Below the pieces are notes generated by a model, which was not told the origin of the DNA, ran no database searches, and saw only the letters and a list, made by a program, of their open reading frames with translations. DNA of 32,541 nt from a virus, in the IMG/VR virus record IMGVR_UViG_3300028883_000101, positions 1 through 32,541 of that record, one strand, 5' to 3'. The translations under genes were made by a program, and so were the position numbers. Of this stretch, positions 1 through 32,541 are shown piece by piece (within the stretch, counting starts at the first letter, position 1; the number at the start of each line of letters is the position of its first letter).

Positions 1-1730
1 CGGGGAACTGGGCAGCAAATCTCATCCTGACCAATGCTCCTGCTTCGGGAGTAAATAGGCACTGGTGGATTCACCATACACCAACAACCCACAGCACAGA
101 TCCAGAATCTCTGCATTGGAACTATATTGCATCTAGCACGGAAGGGGATGTTGGTGGTGAGGGTGGGGTTTCTACCGTACACGCTATGCAGCTCAGCAAC
201 TCTGGCGACCTCAATGTTCTTAATGATATAACGCTTGGTGGGACCGTTGACGGCGTGGATGTAGCATCTCTCAGCTCATCCTGCACCTCGCACTTCAACG
301 ACACCGACAACCCCCATGACGTAAACAAAGCCGATGTCGGCCTTGGTAGCGTAGAGAATACCGCTCTCTCAACTTGGGCAGGCACGAGTAACATTACTAC
401 GGTCGGTGAGTCTGCGGTTACTGCACACGAGGCAGCACTCAGTATTGCTGCGAGCCAGATTACCGGCTTGGACAGTTCCGATCTGTCCGATGTCTCATCT
501 ATTGCAATGCTAGATGAGAATGAAACAATTACTGGAGACTGGGCTTTTAGCGGTCAGGTAAACTTGGGTGGTGGCACCACCTACTATATCTCCAATGCTG
601 GAGCAGCGTATTTACCCTCAATTTACACCAATGAGTATCTTTACCATCGTGGCGACACCGATACCTATCTTCGCTTTACGGCAGATCAGGTTGCACTAGG
701 GGCTGGTGGGACTGAAAGACTTACGGCCAACGCAAGCGGCATTAGTGTCACAGGAGATGTATATGCAACAGGGGCAGGAGTTTACTTAGATGCAGCAGCA
801 GATTACGGAATAGATAAATCAGGTACTACTGTTCGAATTATTGCTAATGCGGGTATCACTATGACTGCAGACGGATCAACAGGGGTTGTAGATTTTACAA
901 ATGCTACTCCTACTGTAGCTTCGGGAGCTGCTACCCTTCTTACTACGGCTGATGTGGATGACACCCCTGTTAATGCGGCTACTACTGCTCCTGTTTCAAG
1001 TAATTGGGCATACGACCACGTGAATGGGTCTGATCCTCATAGTATTTATGCTCGAGAAGCTAGCACTACCACTATTTCAGGGGCTTGGACTTTTACTAGT
1101 GCCAATACTAAATCCTCTATTACTACTGGGGGTGAGTTTACTCTTTACCGCAATGATTCTGATGTTGGTAGCGGTGACCTTGTGGGTATGTTGAATTTTG
1201 CTTCTCAGGATGGGGGGGCAGCTGACCTTGCTTCTATTCGAGCATATGCAAGGAACACCATAAGTCCCACTGTTTTTGATACTTCTCTTGATTTCTATGT
1301 AGGAAACGGGTCAAGTCTTAACAACGATATGAGGCTAGAAAGCGACGGGGACCTCCACGTTGACGGCGATGTCATCGCTTACTCCACCACTATTTCTTCT
1401 GACCGCAGGCTTAAGGAGAATATTCAGGATTTTAACTCGGGGTTAGAAGTTGTCATGGCTCTTCGCCCCATTACTTATGAATATAAAGAAGGTGTTTTCG
1501 GTCAGCAAAACAGGGGTCAGCACTACGGTCTTATTGCTCAAGAAGCTTTAGGAGTAGCCCCCAACATCGTCAGTAAGAAGAAGATGCCTCTTTGGAAGGA
1601 CGAAATCACTGATTATTTTACTATTGACTATACTCAACTAGTCCCAGTTCTTATTGCAGCAGTTCAAGAACAGCAAGAAATCATTGAGGGGCTGGAGAGA
1701 AAAATCGAAGAATTAAGGAGAGCGGCATGA
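1..1730 (+). CDS. Tail fibre with C-terminal S74 self-cleaving chaperone (5' partial)
   Basis: This is a receptor-binding tail fibre or spike. The reading frame is open back to the window edge (frame starting at base 3), so the ATG at 186 is probably internal and the true start lies outside; about 575 residues are visible. Seen: a fibre motif NPHDVNKADVGLGSVENT near nucleotide 310, typical of Phage_fiber_2 trimeric fibres; Gly/Thr/Ala-rich beta-strand repeats; a second SDPHSIY motif near 1030; then SDRRLKENI at about 1398, the signature of the peptidase S74 (endosialidase-type) intramolecular chaperone, ending in a coiled coil (EQQEIIEGLERKIEEL). In that family the chaperone trimerises the fibre and cleaves itself off just before the Ser-Asp pair, which would release about 110 residues here. 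The next gene overlaps by ATGA. The beta-rich fibre body cannot reveal the receptor. Confidence 0.9.
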   Translation, partial: GNWAANLILTNAPASGVNRHWWIHHTPTTHSTDPESLHWNYIASSTEGDVGGEGGVSTVHAMQLSNSGDLNVLNDITLGGTVDGVDVASLSSSCTSHFNDTDNPHDVNKADVGLGSVENTALSTWAGTSNITTVGESAVTAHEAALSIAASQITGLDSSDLSDVSSIAMLDENETITGDWAFSGQVNLGGGTTYYISNAGAAYLPSIYTNEYLYHRGDTDTYLRFTADQVALGAGGTERLTANASGISVTGDVYATGAGVYLDAAADYGIDKSGTTVRIIANAGITMTADGSTGVVDFTNATPTVASGAATLLTTADVDDTPVNAATTAPVSSNWAYDHVNGSDPHSIYAREASTTTISGAWTFTSANTKSSITTGGEFTLYRNDSDVGSGDLVGMLNFASQDGGAADLASIRAYARNTISPTVFDTSLDFYVGNGSSLNNDMRLESDGDLHVDGDVIAYSTTISSDRRLKENIQDFNSGLEVVMALRPITYEYKEGVFGQQNRGQHYGLIAQEALGVAPNIVSKKKMPLWKDEITDYFTIDYTQLVPVLIAAVQEQQEIIEGLERKIEELRRAA

Positions 1731-5134: not shown

Positions 5135-5512
5135 ATGGATGACCACTTAGATGCTTTCTTGATTGAGAAATTCAGAGGTATAGTAGACCAAATAGTAGCT
5201 GACCTTAATAGTCGTTTGGATGAAATAGACAAGCTGATTAAGGGAGATACTGCTGTTCTCGATGATACCGGTATGAAGGGTGAAGCTGCTAGGTTTAGGG
5301 CTTGGAAATCCATTATACATCCCCATGATACTGAGATTCTTGAACTGTGTCGAAATAAGGAGTGGGTCCTCAAGGCTGCTCATCGAGCAAAATGGTGGAG
5401 TAGTAAGGGGGGTAAGATTTTGGCCTGGGTTGGGATTATTACTACCGCTGTTCTGGGTATGTTCGGTAAAGAATTAGGCACTTTAATCTTTAAAAAACTT
5501 TTCGGAGGTTAG
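5135..5512 (+). CDS. Small C-terminally anchored membrane protein, holin candidate
   Basis: A 125-residue protein. Residues 1-90 are charged and helical (LIEKFRGIVDQIVADLNSRL), followed by one hydrophobic stretch at about 94-112 (ILAWVGIITTAVLGMFG) and an amphipathic end with basic residues (IFKKLFGG). There is no signal peptide or catalytic motif. Single-span small proteins beside lysis-type genes are often holins or other membrane effectors, and a DUF5675-type gene lies 1.5 kb downstream. Its coupling to the receiver gene also allows a membrane-linked signalling role. The name holin is only a candidate. The start is ATG 5135, preceded by a G-rich stretch (GGTGGGG). Confidence 0.5.
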   Translation: MDDHLDAFLIEKFRGIVDQIVADLNSRLDEIDKLIKGDTAVLDDTGMKGEAARFRAWKSIIHPHDTEILELCRNKEWVLKAAHRAKWWSSKGGKILAWVGIITTAVLGMFGKELGTLIFKKLFGG

Positions 5513-18895: not shown

Positions 18896-19627
18896 ATGGC
18901 CAAGCCTAAATACAAGTCGGGTATTAGCATCCGAAGAGGTAGTAAGAATTATGCCTCTTTCGAAGATGTGTTTGACGAGTGGGGTGGAGAACTCCAGGCC
19001 ATTCAGGAGAGACTGGGAGAGCTTACTCCCGTCTTTGATGAGGTAGCTCCCTTCATCCTTAGTCGAGTAGAGTTCAATATCATCTCTGGCGAGATGGCTA
19101 AGATGCCCCACCGTTCAACTAAAGCCCGGTCAGGGTTTACTCAGAAAGCCCGAGAAGCCCGCGGCCACGGGGGTGATGATACTGTCCTGTATGCCTCGGG
19201 GGCTCTGATGGAAGCTATTGGGCGTAAGGAGGGGTCTACTTCTAAAGCTAAGGGGAGGCGGCGAGAAGTATACCGGTTGGTGCTGGGAGGTATTACGGGT
19301 AGGCCGGGTTACCAGAGGCTCCAGGAGCAAATGGAGGGAGGGGTTTGGAATGTCCCAACTCGGGTTACCGAGGAGGGTACTCACTACCTTGACTATGACC
19401 GTTTAGAAGGGTCTAACGTTTCGAATGAAGCCGTTTACGGAAGTCGTTGGACTTCTATCTCTGCTTTACCCGAATCAACACGAGAAGTTCAATACCCGCC
19501 TACTGACGTTTTCGCTCTTGAACCCGGAGACGTGGAAGTAGTCAGGAAAATCGTCAGTGAGTGGGCACAGAAAATGATGAGTAGCTTGAATATCAAGAAG
19601 ATGCAAAAAATTAAAGGAATCCGATAA
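18896..19627 (+). CDS. Virion morphogenesis / minor tail protein candidate
   Basis: 243 residues. The mid-part ASGALMEAIGRKEGSTSKAK recalls the 'SGxLxxSI' element of phage virion-morphogenesis/tail_S proteins (P2 gpS, Mu gpG type) and HK97 gp10-like tail completion proteins; the N-terminus is Lys/Gly-rich. In other phages such proteins sit upstream of the tube gene; here it lies between the chaperone and the tape measure. The ATG follows a GGTAAG-like weak site; the stop overlaps the tape-measure start (TAATG). Family match is weak and the location unusual, so confidence is moderate. Confidence 0.4.
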   Translation: MAKPKYKSGISIRRGSKNYASFEDVFDEWGGELQAIQERLGELTPVFDEVAPFILSRVEFNIISGEMAKMPHRSTKARSGFTQKAREARGHGGDDTVLYASGALMEAIGRKEGSTSKAKGRRREVYRLVLGGITGRPGYQRLQEQMEGGVWNVPTRVTEEGTHYLDYDRLEGSNVSNEAVYGSRWTSISALPESTREVQYPPTDVFALEPGDVEVVRKIVSEWAQKMMSSLNIKKMQKIKGIR

Positions 19628-22600
19628 TGTCGGGTGCAGCGGGTAGAAGGGATAACCGGTTTGACTTTATCTTCAACGTCACGGTTGGAGGTAAGGACAA
19701 TCTGTCGAAGGCGGGTAAAGCTGCCAAGTCTGCTGCGCGAGATTGGGATTCATTTGCTGAAAGTATTGATAAGTCCGGCCACTCCATGGAGGTGGGTAAA
19801 GAACGACTCAAGGAATATGTTGCTACATATCGGTCTCTAGAGAGAGGCCTTACTAAGCTAGAGGTCATCCTTAGAGAAAAGAGGAAGGCCGAAGCAGATG
19901 CGGCTTCTACAGAAAAGAATTTAATAGCTATTGAGAAGCAGGTTAAAGCCACCACTAGCTATATCGCCAAGCTCAAAGAGGGAGGTGCAGCTTGGCAAAG
20001 AGAGAAGGCTAAGCTTGATCAGTTAACAGTTTCCCAGAGAGAATCTTCTACTGCTGCCAAGCGGGCAGCTGATACTCTGGAGAGGGTAAAGGCCAAGTAC
20101 GAAGAGAAGTATCTCACCATGCGGAAGTACTTGAAGATCCTAACTCAGAATCAAGAGATTCAGGTAGACTTGGGTAAGCACACGGGTAAGCTTTCGGGGC
20201 AAGTTAAAAAGCTGAGAACTGCGTACGAAGATGCGAAGGTTGCTTCTGGTAAATTGACTACCGAGATGAAGAAGGGAGCTTCTTCTCAGAACAAGACCCA
20301 GAAGGAGCTCAAGGAAACCACTCGGGACGTTAAAAGCCTGAACCGTGCAGTCAGGGATAACGGGAAGACTTGGGACTTCTGGCACGATCAGAGGATTGGT
20401 ACTAACGCGGGTATCTCTCTTCCCGGTTTCCGCCGCTCCCTTGGAGCCATTCGTAACCAGATCCTCGTTTTAACCTTTGCCACACAGGGCTTACGTAAGG
20501 TTTTCAGCGAGGCTTTTCAGTCTTCTCGTCAAATGGAATCAGCACTCCGAGGCTTGGGCTCAGTTTCTCTCAATACAGGAAACATCATGGGAGTGGCTGA
20601 AGAGAAGGCGAAGAACCTGGCTTCGTCCGGTCTTCTTACGGTTTCCGAGGCTTCGGCGGGTTTGAAGAATCTGCTCTCCGCTGGGTTCGGGTTGCCTGAA
20701 GCCACGAAGATGATGAATACCCTGACTGATGCGGCTTCTTTCAACAGGCAAGGGACATTGAAACTGGGAGAGGCTGTTGTAGGAGCTACCCAAGGTATCA
20801 AGAATCAAAACTCTATCATGGTTGATAATGCCGGTATTACTAAAAACTTATCAATCATGTACAAGGAATACGCAGCCCAGATCGGTACTACCATGGGCAA
20901 GCTGGATGAAGCCCAGAAGCGCCAAGCCATCCTTAATGGTATTCAAAAAGAGGGGGCGGTATTTGCAGGGGATTCTGCCAAAGTTTTAGGTACCATGGAG
21001 GGAGCATTAGCCCAGTTTAATGTGACTGCTTTTAATGCGGCAGCGGCATTGGGAGATGTCATGCAACCTGCCATCACCGCATTCTTAGGAACAGTAAAAG
21101 AGACTTACGGGGAGGTTAAGACTTTCCTATCAGATGAAACCTTCAAGGCAGACGCAATGAGGGCAGCGGCTATCGAGGGTAAGGAGTTGGGTGAGGCTTT
21201 TAAGGGGATGATTGAGAGTCTTAAAACTCTTAATGCTTTGGCTAAGTCTACTATTAATAATCTTGAAAAAGTAGTCAACACTATTAGTAAGCTAACAGGG
21301 AATGCCGAGAAAGTTTCTTTAGGGTTTATTGATGTAGCTAAGGCTATAACTAAGGTAGTCATTATTTCTCGTCTTTTTGGGAGGATTACTCGGAATAGTG
21401 CAAAAGCTGTAGAAAAACTAGTAGCGGAAGAAGCCCTCTATTTAGATATTTACAACCGGAGGACTAAGGTAGGGCGTTTAATCAATGCCCAGACAGGAGA
21501 GAGGTTACGAGGTCTCAAAGCTCTCCGGATTGCCCAGATAAAGGTTAATAACTACTACAAGGAAGAGCTTGGTCTTTTAAGGCAACAGTACGTTGAGTAT
21601 AAGAAAGCCCAACTGGGGCTAAAAGCCTTGGGTGTTCGAGCACAGATTGCCGGTAAAAGAATGGTTATGTTCGGTAAAGCAGTCAAGATGGCGGGTTTGG
21701 GACTTAAGTCTTTTGCTATCTCGGTGGGGGTAGCCCTCAAGTCTCTTGCTAGGATGACGGTCTATCTTTTAGTTATGGAGGGAATTCTTTGGGCATGGGG
21801 TAAATTGACCAATAAGACAGATGAAGCAACCGAAGCCATTAAAGACCACCTAGATCAAGCTTACGAATTGAGTGATGCTTATCTCAAGTTGACGGAGAAT
21901 CGTCGTCAACTAGAAGAACTTACTCAAGAGACCTCTGAAAAAGCTTCTCCTCTGGGGATTAGTACATTTGCTCTTCAAAAAGAACAAGCTTTACTTCTGC
22001 GTCATGCTACTGAAGTGGGAAGGTTAACCCATTTATACTGGGATGCAACTAGTGTTGAGGAACAGCAATGGTTAGAGAGACGGATTCAGAAGGCTAATGA
22101 GACATACGAAAAACAGCGGTCTATTGTAGTTGCAAAACAGCGGCAGATAGAGGCTGAAATTACTCAATTCTATGAGACGATTGCTGGGATCGAACAGGCT
22201 TATGCTGACCATCATGAAGAGTGGTTGAAGAAGCACGGTGATCAAGAACTCCGAGCAAATGTTGATCACTATAACGACATGATCACTCAGCAGAAACTTT
22301 TTAATGAGCGTCGGGCTCGGCTGTATGCTGCAGATGCTGCACGGGCTGCAGAACTTGAGGGTAATCTCAATAGGGGCATATCAGAGGCTTACAGTGATGT
22401 CGTTGATAACCGGATTAAGTTTCAAGACGAAGTCACCAAGGAGCTGGATAGTTTTCAACGGAAGATGGAAACTGTTATCCCTAAGCTCATTGTTGATCCC
22501 GAGAAACAAGCTCAGGCTCAAGCCGAAGCTTGGGAAGAGAAGCAGCTCGAGTCCTTAAATAAGATGATGGACAAATTAGAGGAGTCCCTGGAAAACCGTC

Positions 22601-24477
22601 AAACTACATGGAGACAACAGGGTGAAGCTTTAGCAGAGGAGCTTGCTAAGGGGCTGGGAGCGGAGGCTGGAGCATCTCTTATTCCCAGCATGGGGATGTT
22701 CGATAAGATGTCTGGCGGACCGGGGGCAGATGCAGTAGCGGCTGGTAAGTCCATCGAGCGTATGATGGGTGATCTGGGTAGTATGACTGACTTAGATAAT
22801 TTTAAGAACACCATTGAAGAGATAAATGGGCAATTAGCCATTATGGGCTATAAGGTTAAACAGGTTCTTAATACGCAGGAGACTGATACTTCTCTAGGTT
22901 CTATAAAACAACTAAAGGACGCATACAGTATTTGGATTAGGATTGTTGAAGGGTTGAATACAGTATATAACGAGAACAAAGAGGCTATAGCCCTTCAGTC
23001 CCAGGAGGAGCAGAAACTCGCAGAGATTGGTATTCAACTTTCACAGGGTAAAATAACCTTAACGGAGGGGATTGAGAAATATAAGGCAGCTTTGGCTAGT
23101 CAGACCGAAGCGGAGATTCGACTTCGAGAGGTAGAAAAATCTTTTAGGGAGGACCAGAAAGCAGCTGCCATCGAGCGGAACATTGAAAATATGCGTCTGG
23201 AGAATGGACAAAGCCTGAAACTCATCAATATGCAAAAAGCTTTGAATAAGGGACGCTTCAAAGAGGTAAGTACTCTCCGTTGGATTATCAAAGAAAAGGA
23301 GAAGTCGGGGAAAATTACCCATGAGGAGAAGGACCTTGAACTTTCTCTCTTAGGGATTTTCACCGGTAAGAACCGTCGCTTAGCTGAGCAGGCTATCAAA
23401 GAGCAACAGCTCTCTAATGAGTATCAGAATAAGATCCAAGCTCACAAAGATTCTCAAGCAGCTCTTATGGAGGAGAAGGATCTCTACGAGCAGCTGGTGG
23501 GTGGTACTTATAAGGATGCTCAAGGTAAAATCATTCAATTAAGTAATGCCGATCAAGTTGCTGCTGAGATGAAGTTGAGGTATATCGAGAAGCAGATTGC
23601 AGCCGGTGATGGTTATGATGAGGCTCTTCAAAAGTGGTATGATAATGAAAAGGCTAGAGCAGAGACTGACCCCGAAAAAGAAAAGTGGGAACGTCGGATG
23701 CAGGTCCTCCAGTGGGCAATGGATCAAACTGTGGCCTACTATACTAAGATGCAGGATAATAGGGCTGCATATAACGAAACTTTTGATAAGCTTGACCATG
23801 ACCGTTTACAGGCCAATAGTGACTATCAAAAGGAGTTAGCAGCTGAGGTGAAATCAGGGGCTATTTCCCAGGCTCAAGAACAAGCTTTGTTAGCGGCCAA
23901 GATGGCCCAGACCCAGGCTAAAATGGAGCATGACAGGAAGCTTGCTCAAGCTGCCCTTAAACGAGACAACGAGATTGCCCGGGCAGCAATGATCAAAGAC
24001 GTTACTATCACTATTGCTACGGCAATAGCTAAAGAGCTTGCTTTGAATGGAAGTCCATGGGCTGCTGCAGCGGCAATGGCCGGGTTAGCAGTAATACAGG
24101 TTGCAGCGAATGCTGCCTTTAATAAAGCGAAGAGGGATGCTCAGCAGGATTATAACGCAACAGCCGCTGAAGAGGCTGATAAGCTCAGTGCTGCAAATGC
24201 TGCTTTTAGCGCCCAAGAAAACGCAATCCGAGGGGAAGGGGTTGATGGGGCCGAAGGAGATACCCTGAGAACCTCCGCTCGAAAGATCTCGGGTACAATC
24301 AAGGCTGAGTCCATGAATGTCACTATCTCCCCGACTATTGTGGTCAGCGGGGAGCAGGTATTCATTGGTTCAGGTTCAGTGGTTGAATTCCAACTCCAAC
24401 TCCAGCAGCTCATGGTTCAGGCTATGCAGGATGCTATTAATAACCGTGAAATTAACATCGGTACTCTAGGAGGGTAA
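19627..24477 (+). CDS. Tape measure protein
   Basis: 1616 residues. It sets tail length and is ejected ahead of DNA. Residues about 20-240 are coiled coil; 255-450 form the conserved tape-measure region (RRSLGAIRNQILVLTFATQG, SGLLTVSEASAGLKNLLSAG, QGIKNQNSIMVDNAGITKNL); hydrophobic stretches lie at about 705-727 (VYLLVMEGILWAWG) and 1460-1498 (NGSPWAAAAAMAGLAVIQVA); the rest is heptad-rich coiled coil. At roughly 1.5 A per residue the tail would be about 240 nm. The start overlaps the previous stop (TAATG); the Dit-like gene follows after 2 bases. No lysozyme or peptidase motif was noticed. Confidence 0.95.
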   Translation: MSGAAGRRDNRFDFIFNVTVGGKDNLSKAGKAAKSAARDWDSFAESIDKSGHSMEVGKERLKEYVATYRSLERGLTKLEVILREKRKAEADAASTEKNLIAIEKQVKATTSYIAKLKEGGAAWQREKAKLDQLTVSQRESSTAAKRAADTLERVKAKYEEKYLTMRKYLKILTQNQEIQVDLGKHTGKLSGQVKKLRTAYEDAKVASGKLTTEMKKGASSQNKTQKELKETTRDVKSLNRAVRDNGKTWDFWHDQRIGTNAGISLPGFRRSLGAIRNQILVLTFATQGLRKVFSEAFQSSRQMESALRGLGSVSLNTGNIMGVAEEKAKNLASSGLLTVSEASAGLKNLLSAGFGLPEATKMMNTLTDAASFNRQGTLKLGEAVVGATQGIKNQNSIMVDNAGITKNLSIMYKEYAAQIGTTMGKLDEAQKRQAILNGIQKEGAVFAGDSAKVLGTMEGALAQFNVTAFNAAAALGDVMQPAITAFLGTVKETYGEVKTFLSDETFKADAMRAAAIEGKELGEAFKGMIESLKTLNALAKSTINNLEKVVNTISKLTGNAEKVSLGFIDVAKAITKVVIISRLFGRITRNSAKAVEKLVAEEALYLDIYNRRTKVGRLINAQTGERLRGLKALRIAQIKVNNYYKEELGLLRQQYVEYKKAQLGLKALGVRAQIAGKRMVMFGKAVKMAGLGLKSFAISVGVALKSLARMTVYLLVMEGILWAWGKLTNKTDEATEAIKDHLDQAYELSDAYLKLTENRRQLEELTQETSEKASPLGISTFALQKEQALLLRHATEVGRLTHLYWDATSVEEQQWLERRIQKANETYEKQRSIVVAKQRQIEAEITQFYETIAGIEQAYADHHEEWLKKHGDQELRANVDHYNDMITQQKLFNERRARLYAADAARAAELEGNLNRGISEAYSDVVDNRIKFQDEVTKELDSFQRKMETVIPKLIVDPEKQAQAQAEAWEEKQLESLNKMMDKLEESLENRQTTWRQQGEALAEELAKGLGAEAGASLIPSMGMFDKMSGGPGADAVAAGKSIERMMGDLGSMTDLDNFKNTIEEINGQLAIMGYKVKQVLNTQETDTSLGSIKQLKDAYSIWIRIVEGLNTVYNENKEAIALQSQEEQKLAEIGIQLSQGKITLTEGIEKYKAALASQTEAEIRLREVEKSFREDQKAAAIERNIENMRLENGQSLKLINMQKALNKGRFKEVSTLRWIIKEKEKSGKITHEEKDLELSLLGIFTGKNRRLAEQAIKEQQLSNEYQNKIQAHKDSQAALMEEKDLYEQLVGGTYKDAQGKIIQLSNADQVAAEMKLRYIEKQIAAGDGYDEALQKWYDNEKARAETDPEKEKWERRMQVLQWAMDQTVAYYTKMQDNRAAYNETFDKLDHDRLQANSDYQKELAAEVKSGAISQAQEQALLAAKMAQTQAKMEHDRKLAQAALKRDNEIARAAMIKDVTITIATAIAKELALNGSPWAAAAAMAGLAVIQVAANAAFNKAKRDAQQDYNATAAEEADKLSAANAAFSAQENAIRGEGVDGAEGDTLRTSARKISGTIKAESMNVTISPTIVVSGEQVFIGSGSVVEFQLQLQQLMVQAMQDAINNREINIGTLGG

Positions 24478-24479
24478 CC

Positions 24480-26378
24480 ATGGCTACTACTGCCCAATCA
24501 CTTGATAAAGTAGGGGTTGCCGGAATTGGTACTACCTCTCAAGATGTGGCAGCTGATACTGTTGGGCAGAAATGGGAATTAGCGGTTGCGGTTGATGTCC
24601 TGAATTCCAAATTTGAAATTGGGACCAAGGTCAAATACACTTTAGCAGTCGACACCCACGGTCAATCTGCTTTTGCAGCGAATGCTGTAGAGTTCGGGAT
24701 AGCGGCTGCAACCCAGGACCATAACTCTCTACCCTCCAACTATCTCCAGTTCGGGGATAAGGCAGTTATCGGCCCTTCAAGTTATGAGAATGTTGAGGGG
24801 TATACTGAGTCCTTCAGGGTTGCAGTTGCAGCACAAGTAGTGTCCAATGCTGTAAACGCTAATCTCTGGACAAACGGAGTCATCTACCCCTTAGATCGTC
24901 GAACAGATTACGGTTACTCGGTGGGGGATGATATCACCGTCTTGGGTACAGGTATGGCTAAGGGGTGGGCGGTTGAGAATGCGAAGATGGCTACCTTGGG
25001 TATCTTCAAGGGCACTAGTCACTTCGGAGCCATGAGCCGTTATGCGCTGGGTATCGATGACGCCCCCTGGAACCACTTTGAAATCTGGGAGAACTCCCTG
25101 GCTACAGATTTTGTAGGGATCAAGATGATCCTGCCCCAGTCCAACAATTATGCAGTGGGTACTCAAACGGGACCTCTCAACGGTGAACTCAATTCTTACG
25201 GCCCCGTCATTGAGCATTGCGAATACGTCATTGCTCCTTATCGCGAACCCTTGTTTGACGGTAGTCCTGAAAACTGGGATGCTGATTGGGAAGGGGAAAC
25301 GATCCAGGCTTCTTTCCGGTACATCTATTGGGAAACCGATAGTACAGATAATGCCTACTTAGCTTATCGTACTGACGAGAATGCATTGACCATCGATTCT
25401 AACCAGTTTTCAGCCGGTGTCTTAGTAGGAGCTTCCCACGGTGGTGGGCAATTCGATAAGAAAACTGCTCAGCGTCTGTTCACAATGGTTAATGGTATTT
25501 CTGAAGAAGTAGACACCAACGCCAACTACCAGTCAGTCGGTATCTTTTATCAGTATTTGGTAAAGGACATCGGTAATATCACTAACCCCTCGTACATCCG
25601 CATTGTGCCCAATACTACGTACCGCATGGGGATTACTTGGAAGGGTAGCCTTGAACCTTCCCAAGCCAACCTCATTGCGGGGTCCGAGGCTTTTGCTAGG
25701 TTCCAGTGGGGACCCCTTCTGAATGCAGATGTAAACCAATACAGCTCTCACATGATGAGCACGGATAACCTGGTAAACTCTTCCAACCGGTACCAGAATT
25801 CTTGGGTCACCGACATTGTTTCAGGGTATGTAGGGGAGATCGGGTACGACTTTTACGATGATTATATGCCTGCAAACTTGGCTGTCATCCTTAGGGCGAA
25901 GAGTAATATCACTGCTGCCGATACCCGGTTGATCCGGGGGGCTGAACTAGATGTTTTTGTAGATAGCATCTGGTTAGAGCATCAAGGAGACCTTAGCAGT
26001 ACTCAAGCAAGCAACGGGTATTGCGAAATTAATCATTATCCTGAACAAGACACTTTACAGGTAAGCAAGTACCAGCCTGTAGAACCTGTAACCTCCGTCA
26101 TGGGGGATGGTACTACAGTAAGGATTGATACTACAGGTTTTGCTCACCGCGAACTTTATACCATTGAGTGTGACTTTGTTAATATGAAACAGGCAGAGTA
26201 CGATAAAATCCAGGCTTTGATGAAGTGGCAGAAGTTGGGATATCGCCTTGCCCTGCACCCCTATCTGCCCAATGTTCCGCACTGTTTGGTCGGCCACTTA
26301 ACTATTGATAAGGTAGATAAAAGCTTTTGGGATTTGACTCGTTTTACCTTTAGATTTAGGTTTCAGGAGGAGATATAA
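24480..26378 (+). CDS. Minor tail protein, distal-tail-like
   Basis: 632 residues; AGGAGGG precedes the ATG. The C-terminal about 100 residues (FAHRELYTIECDFVNMKQAE, YRLALHPYLPNVPHCLVGHL, then WDLTRFTFRFRFQEEI) have the strand pattern of distal tail (Dit) proteins, which join tube to tip. The large N-terminal and middle part is beta-rich (jelly-roll-like segments such as PWNHFEIWENSLATDFVGIK) and may include a carbohydrate-binding module. Location directly after the tape measure is typical for Dit. Known Dit proteins are about 250-500 residues, so this one has additional domains. Assignment moderate. Confidence 0.5.
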   Translation: MATTAQSLDKVGVAGIGTTSQDVAADTVGQKWELAVAVDVLNSKFEIGTKVKYTLAVDTHGQSAFAANAVEFGIAAATQDHNSLPSNYLQFGDKAVIGPSSYENVEGYTESFRVAVAAQVVSNAVNANLWTNGVIYPLDRRTDYGYSVGDDITVLGTGMAKGWAVENAKMATLGIFKGTSHFGAMSRYALGIDDAPWNHFEIWENSLATDFVGIKMILPQSNNYAVGTQTGPLNGELNSYGPVIEHCEYVIAPYREPLFDGSPENWDADWEGETIQASFRYIYWETDSTDNAYLAYRTDENALTIDSNQFSAGVLVGASHGGGQFDKKTAQRLFTMVNGISEEVDTNANYQSVGIFYQYLVKDIGNITNPSYIRIVPNTTYRMGITWKGSLEPSQANLIAGSEAFARFQWGPLLNADVNQYSSHMMSTDNLVNSSNRYQNSWVTDIVSGYVGEIGYDFYDDYMPANLAVILRAKSNITAADTRLIRGAELDVFVDSIWLEHQGDLSSTQASNGYCEINHYPEQDTLQVSKYQPVEPVTSVMGDGTTVRIDTTGFAHRELYTIECDFVNMKQAEYDKIQALMKWQKLGYRLALHPYLPNVPHCLVGHLTIDKVDKSFWDLTRFTFRFRFQEEI

Positions 26379-27623
26379 ATGCCCCCTAGTACTAGTCCCA
26401 AACAATCCCTCGGAGAACCTCGTAAAATTATCAGTGCTACTCCCAAGTTCTACATAAAGGACCAAGGTACCGATTATGACACGGGAGAAGAATTCAACGG
26501 TATCTGGAGTGGAGGCACATTTATTGACCCCACCGGCTATGGGAGTATCGGTCATTGGCGCTTAAACGAAGAAGCGGGAGCTATCGGGTTTAATAATCGG
26601 ATTCGTGGGCAGATGAACCTCAGGGGGAGAGGGATTAACAGGGGCTCAGACGACATCGGTTCTTATATTACATATAATCTCAAGAAAGATACTCCAGTAG
26701 ACCCCCTTATCGGTAGCGCTGACCACTATACAATGCTAGGTTCTCCTGGCACCTCTATTGATGAGGACGCAGCTTTCGACACATGGCTTAAGACCCCCGG
26801 CTTCGACTCCTTATCTTATGATAATTCTGAAGGCTTGGGAGATATGAGGTATTTCTTCGATATGTGGGTATATCTCTATCACCCGCCGGCAGCGGGGGAA
26901 AAACAAACCCTCTTAGAGCTCTGGAATGATGAGAGTACAAGCTATAACCGAGTTTTACGGTTTTTCATTGGGAATTATTCAGGTAATATTACAGTCAGTA
27001 TGGAGTATGCGAAAGGTAATGCTGCTACTCGGTCTGGGGTTTCAGTAGCCCACTCTTACCCCGCGGGAGCTAAACTCTACCCCCGAGGAGCAGGGTATGA
27101 CGGAGGTCTTCACCACATTGGTTTTGTCCTTGACCGTACCCGCTTAAGCGGGGGGTATATTGTTTTCAGCGAAGATGATGACAACCCCGAGGGTATCTAT
27201 GTGGACGGTCAGAAGTATACGAAGACAGGAAATATTTCTACTTGGTATACAGGGGCACTAGAGGTTAATACGAATGCTTTAATTGGTTGTAACATCCTTG
27301 ATCCTTCTTCTGACTTAACCGCAATTCGAGGGGGGAGCGGGGGTCAAAGGTTTATCAATCATGTTCAGGGTAAGATATATCAAATCCAGATGTGTCACAT
27401 GACCACACTAGGGGAAGTAAGTAAGGAAAGGGTGCGCAAGGTTTACTCCCTTAAATTCGATATTCCTCGAGGTCCTCGAAAAGTAGATTTTTCGGATAGG
27501 TTTACTCAGGATGGTAAACATCTTCTCCAGACTATCTCCCAGATTAAACAGGCTGTTGAGTTAGACGAGGGCACTTTCTTCATTTCAGTCACAGATGTGA
27601 GGTTAATAAATGGCCAGAGTTGA
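26379..27623 (+). CDS. Tail protein with LamG/concanavalin-type lectin domain
   Basis: 414 residues, strong AGGAGG ribosome site. Residues about 60-340 have the LamG/concanavalin A-like pattern: GSIGHWRLNEEAGAIGFNNR, MRYFFDMWVYLYHPPAAGE, TLLELWNDES, then GGLHHIGFVLDRT and a late strand (GKIYQIQMCHMTTLGEVSKE). These domains bind glycans, so a role in host surface recognition or tip structure is likely. The C-terminal 60 residues (PRKVDFSDRFTQDGKHLLQT) are a separate piece that may anchor it to the tip. It overlaps the next gene by 14 bases. Domain call moderately sure. Confidence 0.6.
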   Translation: MPPSTSPKQSLGEPRKIISATPKFYIKDQGTDYDTGEEFNGIWSGGTFIDPTGYGSIGHWRLNEEAGAIGFNNRIRGQMNLRGRGINRGSDDIGSYITYNLKKDTPVDPLIGSADHYTMLGSPGTSIDEDAAFDTWLKTPGFDSLSYDNSEGLGDMRYFFDMWVYLYHPPAAGEKQTLLELWNDESTSYNRVLRFFIGNYSGNITVSMEYAKGNAATRSGVSVAHSYPAGAKLYPRGAGYDGGLHHIGFVLDRTRLSGGYIVFSEDDDNPEGIYVDGQKYTKTGNISTWYTGALEVNTNALIGCNILDPSSDLTAIRGGSGGQRFINHVQGKIYQIQMCHMTTLGEVSKERVRKVYSLKFDIPRGPRKVDFSDRFTQDGKHLLQTISQIKQAVELDEGTFFISVTDVRLINGQS

Positions 27624-30600
27624 GGAAATTAGGCCTCCAATTCGGGAAGACCAACGTGTAGAACGTTTTTGGGATCAACCTCTCCAGGACCAGCTTTATA
27701 CAGAAGGAGGATATAAAGCAGTATTCCCGCCTACCAAAGGGGGTGGTGGTACTTCGTGGCAGAATAAAGAAATAGTTATTGGCCTCGAGGTTCAATATGC
27801 TGATGGTTCTCGGGAGGAAGTAGAGGTTGTGGGAGGCGTTGTTGATAAAATCCAAACCCAGAGGTCTTCTACTACTGCAGTCATGAAAATAAAATCTCAT
27901 GCAAAAACTCTTCAAGATGATCAAGCAGAGAGAGTACGGGATGGTAGCCGGTGGTATGAAAACGAGCGCCTTAGCTACATACTCAACCGGCTTCTTGAGC
28001 AAGTATTCAGGGATGCTGATGGTAATTTACCCCTAGACAAGAGAGCCAAAGCTAATAAGCTGAAGCTCAATACAATAGATGGGGAAGTAGGCTATTGGAG
28101 TTTGGGTAAGCCTCCGGGATGGGATGGGGAAACCTATACTCCTGACACTAATGCTTACCCGGTTACTTCTTTGTGTACTGGACCAGATCGCGACTATATC
28201 TATGTAGGTCTCGGGGGACGAGTTGAGGATTCTGAGTCTTATTCTCCTCAGTTGTGGAAATACCACATAGATACTAATACTTGGACATTTCTTCAAGAGA
28301 CAGACCCTGCTGGAAGTTCCGGGGTTGGTGATGACGATACCACTTATGCTCAAATTCATAATTTGTTCTACAATACCGAGGATGGGTATCTCTACGGGGT
28401 TCTTTGGAGAGATTGGGCTGATAGTGAAGATTCAATTACTGAGGCTGATACTCCACACCTAGATTGGATGGCCCCTCCTGCCAGGATTTTCTGGTTTAAG
28501 GAAGGACAACCTTTTCTTGACCATGACACCTATAGCCACAAAATAGATAATTTTTGGACAGGCCAGTGGGACTTCCGTGAAATGTTCATGACCGACAAGA
28601 ACCTCAATACCCAGGTCTCTTATGACGGAGGTACCGGGGGTACGGTCTCAGGGTCAGAACCTCATAACGACGGTCAACCTGATAAAGCTACACCCTTAGC
28701 GGGAGTAGGTAACTTTTCGGCTTTCAAGTATATCATGCTTCCTACTCCGGATGGGGATCATGCAATGTTACCCGAGGGAGTTTCTAATATTGAGCACCGA
28801 CGCCAAGTTCACCGTTATTGGCCCCAGCCCTCGTGGAATAATTGGTATAATGATGTGGTTACTGCTGACTGGAATGACCTGGGGACGGGAGAGTTAATTC
28901 CTACTACGCCTACTAATGCGAATACTCAATGGACTAACGCTTCGGGGGCGACTCCTCCTGACGGCTGGTCTACTTATGGTAATGATTCAGCTAATACCAC
29001 GTACAGCGTTACTAACGGTGTACTTACAATGAACGTAGGTAGTGGTTCTGATAAGCTTGATCGTTGCCAGTTAGTCCATACCCTAGTTGAAAGGAATATG
29101 ACTGTTTTTAGAATTAGAGTAGAAGGCCTTTCGGGGGGTCAGGTTTTCGTAGGGGGCACTCCAGTAGGAATAGGTGGGTCCGGCTATTTTGATTGGTGGA
29201 AAACTCAAGGACCTCTAGGCTTTCCATGGGGCGGGGCTATTGGAGCTGACGGCGACTACTACTTTACTTATCTCCAATCAAATGCCATCCCCAACATGGG
29301 AGCCCAAGGCCAGTTTGATGAGCAAAGCTCTGCCTATCTTGATATGTTTGCATGTTTGGGGATCAGCTTTGCTCCCAACTCTTATACATCACCTCTGCAG
29401 ATTAATAATCTTAGTGTAGCGGTTGCTCGATATTGGGACCGTTCACATGAAGAAAAATATTCTGCAGGGGAAAATATCCCTATTACTGGTTTTAGTAAGA
29501 TTGTGGTTTGTACCTATATTAGCCCCAGCTCTCACAAGGCGGAGTACGGCCCCTATTTTGACTCCTACGCAAATAACTCCGTAAATCAATACTCATCTCG
29601 TAATGCAGTTCCTGATTTAGGTGATGACCTCAACATGGAGTATTTTTTGGAGTTTAACTTCATTGCCCAGGACCGTTCCCTTATTGAGGCGGGCATGAAT
29701 AGCGCATGCTGGAACGGGCTTTGGGGTCCCAGTTATGCAGAAGAGGGAGTTGCTCCTGATAATACTTCACGGTTTATCATAGGCACTGACGAGAGTGCTC
29801 CAGGGGTTGGAGCGGTTAATGAAGAGAAAATCATTACAGTAGCTCCAGATTTCTACGAAGCTAATGCTGCTAACATGGTTATCGGCCAAAACGCTAACCT
29901 CTATGGAAACCCCGAGCATTATATCGGTGCAAGAAAAGGTCATGGCTACGGCTCTGTCCAAGTAATTCCCATTGGCGAACCGGCAATGTGGCATACTTCC
30001 GAAGATAATTACGAAATCTCTGGTGCAGTTCGGTATACTAACGGACAACAGGGTTTCTTCTGCTTTAGTCAAGAAGCCGACGACGGGAATGGGCTTATCC
30101 TTTTTGCCCAGTTTGACGGGGAGTCTGATGCAACTGCTTCCCGGAGAAACCGTTGGGGACCTGACAACTATCAGCACCTTGGAATTAAGTACTCTGTGAT
30201 GAAGTGTTCAGACCACTCCGTTACTGATTTTTACCAGGGAACTACCCATGCGGTAGGCGGAACCATTCTCACTAAGAGATCCAATACCAATCCTCCTTAT
30301 CATACTACAGATCAGTATGATGCGATTTATCCTATTGCCGGTTGTGCAGACGCAACGGGTACTTTTTATATCTCGGCTGTAGAGAGTATTACTTATGAAA
30401 CAAAGAGTGCCTCTGGTGCTCAAGTAGGTAAGAATTACTTATTTTGTTGGGAACCCGGAACAGACCCCCTGCCTGCAATAGGGTCTTGGCCTTCCCCTTA
30501 TACTAAGTGGACAAGTACTAGCGATGCTTCTGTATATAACACCGACGGTGTATCTACTTGTTACGGTAATCTGTCTGACAATTACTATGGAGCTACGGGG

Positions 30601-32541
30601 GCGGCAGGGCCTGTAGATAATTTTAGAAAAATCCTCTGGCTCCACTATAGCACAGCGCTAGAAGAAATAGTGGGTTGGTGTTTTCGCAGAGATCGACTCC
30701 TGGCTGATCCCGATGGAGTAAGTGGAGTTGGAATCCCCTGTCACGAAGTTTTTGTATACTCGGGGACTAATTCTCTCAAAATCATTGACCATGACATAGC
30801 GGATAGTATGTATACTGACTCCGTTGGTTTTGTTGGGTTCTGCGATACACAAGGTAACTTTGCTACTGATATTGCTCCTCCCGGTACTTCTAATGCTCTG
30901 TGGTATTTTAGAGTTAAGAAGGTCTCGGTAGGAGGAGGAAAGTTCGAGTACATCGGTGAAGACATTGTTATGAACTGTGCTTACCTTGATGGTAGCGGTA
31001 ATATCATTGCAGGAGAATACTGGGACAATGCAGACTCCCCCGATGAGTCGACTCCACTTTATCCGGGGGAACATTATCTGGGGGCAAAGGTTGCGGTCTC
31101 TGCTTTGGTAGATAAGGGGTTGACTACTGAGCGGGAAGCCATCTTCTCTTCTTTCGATCAAGCCCTCTCTTATTTCCACATTGGTAAAGAAGCCCGAGAT
31201 AGCCTGGGTGATTCTACGTGGGACTTTTTCAAATTGGATGATCGGGAAGTAGATCCCATCATTCAAGTAGCAGATTTCACAGGACTAACTGTTTTCGATG
31301 CTATTGCCCAGCTTGCTAGGGCTAACAACTTCATTTTCGGTTTCGATATTAATGAGTTTTTCATGGTGGATCGAGATACTACTTCTCTAACCCATACATT
31401 TGACTCAGCCCTGGGTGAGATAAAGGATATCACCAAACAGCAGATTGATAACATTAAGAACGTTATCACCATCCAGCCTTATACTCCTCAAGTTCAGGAT
31501 TTGGATTGGGAAGTCACTCATGTGGGTACAGAAGAGGACCTTGCTGATGAGGAATTGTTTAACGGTGATTTAGTGATCACGGTTAAAACCCACAAAGAGC
31601 TTTCCATGAACTTCATCTGCTCCCGTAAAGGTCGTCTGATTCTGGATAGAGAAGGAGACCCCAGCGAGGACACTACTATTATTCCCGTAGACGCCTTGAA
31701 TGACCCCGAGGAACGGTACACCCCCTTCTTTAAATTCAAGACTAATGCTCCGTTGAAGAAGGTTATTCTGATGCGGAATTTAGCTGCTGACGATACTACT
31801 GTTTATACCAATACGGTATTTACGGGCGGTAGCGACCCTATTCAGGTCGGGGATGCAATCATTTTTACACACCCTACTACTTTTGTACAATTCGGAAGAA
31901 TTATCACGGATATCGATACTACTAACAGTGAAATTACTATTGAAGGAGGCCCAGGGTTTGCGGTAGAGAAAGGCATGCCCTTGGATGTAGTAACCACCTC
32001 GATAGGGACGTTTCAAGATATTAACGGTAATACCAAGATTCACGACTATGCAAATACCTGGTCTGACCAAGGGGTTTGTGTTATTACCTCAGCCCCTACC
32101 CTTACTACGGGATTAGCTAATGAGCCGGGCTCAGGATTTACTAAATTCACAGTTAATAATATTGCGCCTTTTAGGGGTTTTAAGTTCAGGCATTATAATG
32201 CAGATGGGTATCGGTATTACCCCTTCTTAATCACGACTCAAAACTCTATTGGTTTTGCTAGTGGGACTCAGTCTTTGCCGAAGGGAGCTCTTTCTACCAC
32301 TCCTGCTCAAGGTACCCCCTCCTCTTGGATTTGGGATGTAGACGAGGATACTCGAACGATTTACTTAAACGGACGTAATGACTTGTTTGTTCAGGGAGAT
32401 GTACTAAACGTCCACTTTGCGATGCCCCCAGCCACCCTGATTAAGCAACTCTCTACACAAGGTCGAAGTGATTACGAGCCTCCGCCGTACCAAAGCCTCA
32501 CAACTGACTTCCCCAGCGGGCTCGCACATTTCCATTGGTAT
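27610..32541 (+). CDS. Giant tail hub/tip protein with large beta-rich insertion (3' partial)
   Basis: Open from ATG 27610 (GAGG 7 bases upstream) to the window end: 1644 codons with no stop. Residues about 50-150 (AVMKIKSHAKTLQDDQAERV, SYILNRLLEQVF) and 1212-1300 (REVDPIIQVADFTGLTVFDA, FGFDINEFFMVDRD, IKNVITIQPY) resemble tail hub / Tal-gp27-type proteins, which form the tip ring. Between them lies about 1000 residues: a kelch/propeller-like blade (YIYVGLGGRVEDSES, LWKYHIDTNTW at about 190-230), a jelly-roll-like part (about 434-520) and further blade-like repeats (YPIAGCADATGTFYISAVES, VGFVGFCDTQGNFATDIAPP). After 1300 it is beta-sandwich-like. It would read host surface sugars and possibly trigger DNA release. 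The C-terminus is outside the window. Confidence 0.75.
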   Translation, partial: MARVEEIRPPIREDQRVERFWDQPLQDQLYTEGGYKAVFPPTKGGGGTSWQNKEIVIGLEVQYADGSREEVEVVGGVVDKIQTQRSSTTAVMKIKSHAKTLQDDQAERVRDGSRWYENERLSYILNRLLEQVFRDADGNLPLDKRAKANKLKLNTIDGEVGYWSLGKPPGWDGETYTPDTNAYPVTSLCTGPDRDYIYVGLGGRVEDSESYSPQLWKYHIDTNTWTFLQETDPAGSSGVGDDDTTYAQIHNLFYNTEDGYLYGVLWRDWADSEDSITEADTPHLDWMAPPARIFWFKEGQPFLDHDTYSHKIDNFWTGQWDFREMFMTDKNLNTQVSYDGGTGGTVSGSEPHNDGQPDKATPLAGVGNFSAFKYIMLPTPDGDHAMLPEGVSNIEHRRQVHRYWPQPSWNNWYNDVVTADWNDLGTGELIPTTPTNANTQWTNASGATPPDGWSTYGNDSANTTYSVTNGVLTMNVGSGSDKLDRCQLVHTLVERNMTVFRIRVEGLSGGQVFVGGTPVGIGGSGYFDWWKTQGPLGFPWGGAIGADGDYYFTYLQSNAIPNMGAQGQFDEQSSAYLDMFACLGISFAPNSYTSPLQINNLSVAVARYWDRSHEEKYSAGENIPITGFSKIVVCTYISPSSHKAEYGPYFDSYANNSVNQYSSRNAVPDLGDDLNMEYFLEFNFIAQDRSLIEAGMNSACWNGLWGPSYAEEGVAPDNTSRFIIGTDESAPGVGAVNEEKIITVAPDFYEANAANMVIGQNANLYGNPEHYIGARKGHGYGSVQVIPIGEPAMWHTSEDNYEISGAVRYTNGQQGFFCFSQEADDGNGLILFAQFDGESDATASRRNRWGPDNYQHLGIKYSVMKCSDHSVTDFYQGTTHAVGGTILTKRSNTNPPYHTTDQYDAIYPIAGCADATGTFYISAVESITYETKSASGAQVGKNYLFCWEPGTDPLPAIGSWPSPYTKWTSTSDASVYNTDGVSTCYGNLSDNYYGATGAAGPVDNFRKILWLHYSTALEEIVGWCFRRDRLLADPDGVSGVGIPCHEVFVYSGTNSLKIIDHDIADSMYTDSVGFVGFCDTQGNFATDIAPPGTSNALWYFRVKKVSVGGGKFEYIGEDIVMNCAYLDGSGNIIAGEYWDNADSPDESTPLYPGEHYLGAKVAVSALVDKGLTTEREAIFSSFDQALSYFHIGKEARDSLGDSTWDFFKLDDREVDPIIQVADFTGLTVFDAIAQLARANNFIFGFDINEFFMVDRDTTSLTHTFDSALGEIKDITKQQIDNIKNVITIQPYTPQVQDLDWEVTHVGTEEDLADEELFNGDLVITVKTHKELSMNFICSRKGRLILDREGDPSEDTTIIPVDALNDPEERYTPFFKFKTNAPLKKVILMRNLAADDTTVYTNTVFTGGSDPIQVGDAIIFTHPTTFVQFGRIITDIDTTNSEITIEGGPGFAVEKGMPLDVVTTSIGTFQDINGNTKIHDYANTWSDQGVCVITSAPTLTTGLANEPGSGFTKFTVNNIAPFRGFKFRHYNADGYRYYPFLITTQNSIGFASGTQSLPKGALSTTPAQGTPSSWIWDVDEDTRTIYLNGRNDLFVQGDVLNVHFAMPPATLIKQLSTQGRSDYEPPPYQSLTTDFPSGLAHFHWY

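Follow-up and report, generated by a model that had tools for sequence, protein, structure and literature searches.

A putative phage baseplate hub protein interrupted in one loop by about 1060 residues with propeller-like sequence

The IMG/VR virus record IMGVR_UViG_3300028883_000101 was analysed over its whole length of 32,541 bases (the window), and the gene under study is the baseplate hub (Tal-type) gene at its right-hand end (27610..32541, plus strand, as are all features given below). Its frame runs for 1644 codons from the ATG at 27610 to the last base without a stop, in agreement with an earlier model reading made from the letters of the window (the sequence-only reading), which had reported a frame of at least 1644 codons running off the window. 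As the window is the entire record, it is the end of the contig that truncates the gene, whose 3' end is missing. Judged by sequence profiles, residues 15-142 (27652..28035) and residues 1205-1420 (31222..31869) are two halves of one hub, and the protein is very probably a single baseplate hub that is interrupted by about 1060 residues in one loop. The insert, bounded by a joined-profile test at residues 143-1204 (28036..31221; 1062 residues), is likely to be mainly a propeller. For the protein as a whole we favour, with some reserve, a tailed-phage hub of the gp27-like Tal or baseplate hub protein (BHP) type, with a propeller and carbohydrate-binding module (CBM) insert that would bind cell-surface glycans.

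The outer parts were compared with uninterrupted hubs of distant phages that share the tape-measure core. These hubs are mostly 350-540 residues long with no large insert, and 17 distinct ones were collected (27 open reading frames before duplicate removal); as the set was selected by one hidden Markov model (HMM) domain spanning the site, all 17 lack a large insert by construction and the count is not a census. Their identity as hubs is supported by the PHROG 'baseplate hub' in two of nine members (best E 1.5e-7), by tail PHROGs in up to six of the nine, and by the Pfam families Phage_GPD (1/9, 1e-8) and YQBQ (3/9, 1.3e-7). In hhalign comparisons the N piece, which covers hub domain I to the first helix of domain II, matched uninterrupted-hub columns 23-125 (P 1.5e-3), and the C piece, which covers the rest of domain II and domain III, matched columns 125-354 (P 3.9e-4, convincing only for about 125-210). 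A C-terminal hub segment, seen only in relatives because it lies past the window end, matched columns 258-395 (P 1.1e-4). The three pieces match in order and the first two abut. A second, overlapping uninterrupted set was matched by the N piece (columns 97-199, P 3.2e-4) and by the C-terminal piece (P 2e-6), and the latter also found the uninterrupted hub L115 by plain HMM search (E 2.1e-6).

The joined profile, from which the middle had been removed, scored 50.8 and 58.0 against uninterrupted hubs in two comparisons, whereas the maxima of 100 column-shuffled decoys per comparison were 24.4 and 23.6 and the reversed joined profile scored 12.4 and 16.3. Swapping the order of the first two pieces lowered the score to 37.1 and 48.6. 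By this decoy-controlled comparison hub domains I-III (numbered by order, not by structure) occur in order, with the halves individually weak, and domain IV is found in the relatives' C-terminal piece and is cut off in the window itself. The hub-like sequence that the sequence-only reading had placed at residues 50-150 and 1212-1300 was confirmed and widened to about 15-142 and 1205-1420, plus the segment in the relatives; a beta-rich stretch (residues 1421-1644, 31870..32541; alignment A9) lies between half 2 and the C-terminal hub segment. The gene order is also that of a hub, as upstream on the same strand lie a tape-measure gene (19627-24477), a Dit-position gene (24480-26378, product 632 residues) and a third gene (26379-27623, product 414 residues), followed by the hub, and the same order is found in relatives.

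The collinear halves place the middle within the hub and not at its end, as had been proposed from the sequence. Uninterrupted hubs have a helix ('...IIEDILTNVGFG...'), then a stretch of roughly 10-25 residues, and then a strand and the next helix; by eye, the corresponding helix of the window protein ends at about residue 135 and the corresponding strand and helix occupy about 1218-1240. Compared with these hubs, the insertion falls within domain II, with domain I on one side and the remaining hub on the other. The N piece and the C piece are separated by 1062 residues in the window protein. The separation is 1083 residues in L140, 1156 in L141, 1155 in L142 and 1166 in L143, and it is 772 residues in the identical hubs of G014 and G015, 814 in G016 and 567 in G026, so that the relatives' inserts span 567-1166 residues.

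Two further hubs show additions of their own. In L064 (4484-6910), which failed the one-domain filter for the uninterrupted set and was viewed separately, about 190 extra jelly-roll-like residues were seen by eye at the same hub loop; as these are independent of the inserted clade, the loop looks module-accepting. The L064 hub has an in-frame TAG at 5252 inside the extra residues, and the other long frames of that locus end in TAA or TGA. The uninterrupted hub L042:6209-8251 carries a long serine-proline low-complexity C-terminal tail (SPSPSASVSPSGS...).

Relatives were reached via the portal (four records) and via the conserved tape-measure core (alignment A4; 48 loci), and both kinds were found, with the insertion and without it. 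Hub matches (E <= 0.01) occurred in nine of the 49 records searched, many of the 40 non-matching records stopping before the hub gene. Seven of the nine match at both ends and two at the start only, the record ending there (G005 and G003, the latter a portal-derived record that carries the start of a homologous hub). The G012 hub matches the window hub over its full length (45%) and those of G007 and G009 over nearly the entire length (about 40%), whereas the matches of G014, G015, G016 and G026 are confined to the two ends. A further full-length relative of 1900 residues (L141) was obtained by scanning with the C-terminal half, and an uncharacterised public protein of an uncultured virus, A0A218MKP7, was found in BFVD (29% identity, 1013 alignment columns, E 1.2e-37). 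A tblastn search of 50,697 phage records, in which the window hub and two relatives served as queries, found nothing. The hub sequence likewise found nothing when scanned twice against IMG/VR and once against genomes, and a genome-contig scan with the tape-measure core gave no relatives. Compared with four full-length relatives, about 145 C-terminal residues are absent from the window hub; in the alignment, residue 1659 of the 1803 in the G012 hub pairs with window residue 1643.

Both hub halves lie in one open frame in all eight records that hold both (G012, G007, G009, G014, G015, G016, G026 and the contig of L141; seven distinct proteins). This continuous frame speaks against a middle that is made separately from its own start or released by proteolytic cleavage, the case that the sequence-only reading had set against its own proposal; nothing was found in favour of such a middle, and we regard it as extremely improbable.

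Three parts can be distinguished within the insert. The first (residues 143-410, 28036..28839) contains propeller-like blades. Pfam Kelch_6 matched residues 194-229 (E 1.7e-4, 21.9 bits, under the cut-off of 25.3), with two weaker Pfam propeller models at the same place, and kelch-type models touch this part in the window, G012 and L141. As the Kelch_6 match is below the curated cut-off, the part is called propeller-like and not kelch; the kelch-like blades of the sequence-only reading thus retain this match and the two meanders described below, without reaching the family threshold. The same residues are homologous in G014/G016 (P 1.9e-5), G026 (P 1.6e-6) and G003 (P 4e-34), that is, in all distant members tested, so one ancestral insert is likely. 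The G003 insert (L018:9947-12583) contains Sortilin-Vps10 (41.4 bits, cut-off 33) and PSII_BNR (35.8, cut-off 27) matches, and this propeller apparently sits on top of the shared first blades.

The second part (residues 411-612, 28840..29445), placed by strand pattern and weak, is probably a nested jelly roll of CBM4 type. The remainder (residues 613-1204, 29446..31221) is strand-rich and would probably hold further blades. It matches G003 (P 5e-7), the start of the stretch being a conserved bridge, and weakly G026 (P 0.007); its match to G014/G016 is not significant (P 0.11), and residues 613-800 contain indel-rich patches. The sequence-only reading had also described repeated 'GFCDTQGNF/AGCADATGTF' units, with the strings at 1076 and 910, but these do not exceed chance, and comparison of the protein with itself gave no match in BLASTP and no significant one in hhalign. 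A motif made from these units occurs three times against 1.87 expected, with 581 of 2000 shuffles reaching three, and it does not occur in L141, L142, L143 or L089.

Several results weigh against an interrupted hub with a propeller insert. The window protein alone gave no match in PHROGs or among PDB sequences and no hub family match in Pfam, and the uninterrupted-hub HMM alone scores it at E 0.59. Half 2 was not matched in the second uninterrupted set (P 0.22). As regards the insert, sequence repeats for blades were not found (BLASTP of the protein against itself returned nothing up to E 10, and no hhalign self-alignment had a P under 0.79), and residues 411-612 had no profile match in G014/G016, G026 or G003, which are outside the close clade. 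AlphaFold2 failed both for L043, the smallest relative, modelled in one piece (mean predicted local distance difference test, pLDDT, 31.0), and for window residues 14-1213 overall (mean pLDDT 31.2), so that the models show no single hub fold and no closed propeller. Lastly, conservation within the clade is similar for the blades and for hub half 1, which is not what fast-evolving receptor reading would suggest.

The points on the outer parts would fit a multi-domain fibre whose ends resemble a hub by chance or by generic beta-sandwich similarity. The halves are weak singly, half 2 is unmatched in one of the two sets, and none of the profile comparisons with T5 pb3 or lambda L/J reached significance (P 0.097 to 0.72), the best single-HMM match among these being lambda J (E 0.025). 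However, these last comparisons also show that the method, while limited in reach, does not match everything, and the three pieces in order, of which the first two abut, the joined scores far above the decoys in each of two comparisons, and the gene position argue for one hub. We therefore consider a fibre of this kind very improbable. A PDB search with a profile of five relatives returned one chain (E 1.7).

The failed window model was nevertheless searched against known folds, and the outcome is used as weak support. Residues of about 185-312, its best part, form two four-stranded meanders in it, with pLDDT per 10-residue block from 24 (loop) to 75. The best rows of a VIA search align residues 150-354 mostly with chains that we take to be propellers, the best row having Z 10.2 and a root-mean-square deviation of 2.3 over 90 residues, as compared with a typical best Z of 7-8 without a clear match. 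The best Foldseek PDB row is the CBM4 cellulose-binding domain 1cx1 (E 1.4e-3, TMt 0.38; the matched model range was not printed, and model block pLDDT is about 20-52 over residues 411-612), and CelK CBM4 and CBM29 are among the lower rows; none of the rows reaches E 0.001. The jelly-roll-like part named by the sequence-only reading is thus retained in weak form only, at about residues 411-612. No hub was matched in these fold searches, which a low-confidence model cannot exclude.

Rows of the same Foldseek search include GH43 and sialidase NanA propellers, which together with the BNR-type matches in G003 could point to an insert that is a surface-polysaccharide-cutting enzyme of the propeller glycosidase type within the same architecture. 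A peripheral domain in phage R4C has been predicted to be mannanase-like (PMC10276861). We consider an enzyme improbable, as no enzyme family was found in Pfam for the window protein or four close relatives and the fold rows are of low confidence and mostly generic propellers.

The favoured reading of the insert as a binding device was also set against its conservation. Conservation against L140 and L143 is 47 and 41% for hub half 1, 43 and 41% for the blades, 38 and 35% for the jelly roll, 37 and 30% for residues 676-800, 45 and 39% for residues 801-1000, 45 and 36% for residues 1001-1204, and 57 and 54% for hub half 2 (residues 1205-1340). The jelly roll and residues 676-800 are therefore less conserved than hub half 1 and the blades within the clade, and the larger differences lie between clades. 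We accordingly rejected the idea that fast change marks the insert as a receptor reader, which the within-clade values do not support. Among clade members the insert shows no hypervariability. This counts against a reader that switches receptors rapidly and would admit a structural role, in which an insert in the same architecture closes the tube or forms an outer shell or fibre docking site without host recognition.

Such a structural role would agree with the near-equal conservation of the insert and hub half 1 and with the retention of the first blades in all divergent members tested, with T5 and a gene transfer agent (GTA), which close the tube with an insertion in hub domain II (hdII; PMC10038345), and with the presence of a tail-fibre gene elsewhere in the window (186-1730). 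On the other hand, the nested CBM4-like domain (weak) and the BNR-type propeller of G003 look like surface-binding modules, and indel-rich patches occur at residues 613-800. On this evidence a structural insert appears unlikely, though it deserves serious consideration. That the insert binds a glycan or a receptor is a proposal for which we see even chances; the CBM-like fold and the propeller, together with published precedents, make glycan binding the preferred function.

Insertion into a hub is itself known from T5 pb3, GTA, R4C and TP-778L, but we found no description of an insert of the present kind. The view of the sequence-only reading that a receptor-reading domain inside the hub would be unusual was thus overstated, as large hub inserts have been published for T5 pb3, GTA, R4C and SW13/TP-778L; the window insert is nevertheless unusually large among known hub inserts. 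T5 BHP pb3 is similar in plan, a single chain with a large insertion in hub domain II. This insertion is a tube-closing plug that is smaller than that of the window protein (pb3 has 949 residues in all), and pb3 compared with the window-family profiles gave P 0.21-0.59, so that the same loop is suggested from domain order only. In T5 and the gene transfer agent the tube is closed by the large hdII insertion, and hub domain II rotates as the T5 tube opens (PMC10038345).

Very large domains between the first and central hub domains occur also in the hub/megatron of roseophage vB_DshS-R4C and RcGTA (PMC10276861, PMC7296036), and in the R4C megatron the peripheral domain, which precedes the central hub domain, itself contains a nested CBM11-like domain (PMC10276861). 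Unlike the window protein, these hubs are split over two proteins and have an iron-sulfur domain (PMC10276861, PMC7296036). Their inserts have no propeller; the RcGTA text uses the word a single time, for a tail-fibre foot (PMC7296036), and the R4C text does not use it (PMC10276861). The streptococcal Tals of SW13/TP-778L resemble the window protein in having modules inserted inside the gp27-like hub domain, and they carry a CBM4-type module elsewhere; however, the inserted modules are two lysins of about 170 and 150 residues located between sub-domains 3 and 4 and not in domain II, with no propeller (PMC9437275). Tals decorated with CBMs have been termed 'evolved Tals' (PMC7291167). Like the proposed insert, the receptor-binding protein Gp45 of phage phi11 is a tail-tip beta-propeller proposed to hold a wall sugar, but it is a protein of its own, with five blades, that surrounds the baseplate core and is not inserted in the hub (PMC4901313). 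No description of a propeller inserted in a phage hub was found in the literature searched, which omits most subscription papers.

A possible ribosome-binding site, GAGG (27599..27602), was seen by eye 7 bases 5' of the ATG, and the hub gene start overlaps the preceding gene by 14 bases. The Dit identity of the 24480-26378 product rests on gene position; its ends are conserved in relatives and its middle is rich in insertions and deletions, so this neighbour too may be decorated. The 414-residue product is LamG/ConA-like by eye and had no Pfam match; in G002 a beta-helix-like-looking protein (L014:9623-10585) occupies its place, and in L135 the hub itself carries a LamG-like stretch at its N-terminus. 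To the left of these genes the window has portal and major-head/protease matches, and beyond the portal gene, far upstream, comes the tail-fibre gene (best PHROG match phrog_5668, E 9.1e-31). Downstream of the hub in L140, L141 and L143 are small genes and one gene of 200-380 residues; as the stretches listed for these three contain no longer same-strand frame, no long fibre gene follows the hub there.

In characterised long-tailed phages, the step from receptor contact to tube opening is a mechanical puzzle that usually involves several proteins. In the arrangement that we favour, hub domain I and the start of domain II would be followed by about 1060 extra residues in one domain II loop, with propeller blades first and probably then the CBM4-like jelly roll, after which the hub would resume with domains II-III, and with IV as in the relatives. 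By analogy with published hubs, the protein may form a trimer stacked under the Dit ring, in which case three inserts would project from the tail tip, and by binding glycans of the cell surface they may draw the tip to the envelope. As the insert is placed in the domain that rotates on opening of the T5 tube, binding could, by the same analogy, be coupled to opening. A bolder and rather doubtful proposal is that the hub itself is the host-reading device, in which three propeller/CBM arms set in a mobile domain II would detect the receptor and directly open the tube, and that domain II offers a modular propeller slot that is widespread but undescribed among environmental phages; if this were true, sensing and gating would be combined in one polypeptide. 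For annotators, the architecture explains why hubs of 1400-1900 residues, invisible to PHROGs and PDB by sequence, stay unrecognised. The related phages with no, a smaller or a larger insert at the same loop form a natural series on how much this loop tolerates, and they allow one to ask whether recognition can be wired directly into the gate.

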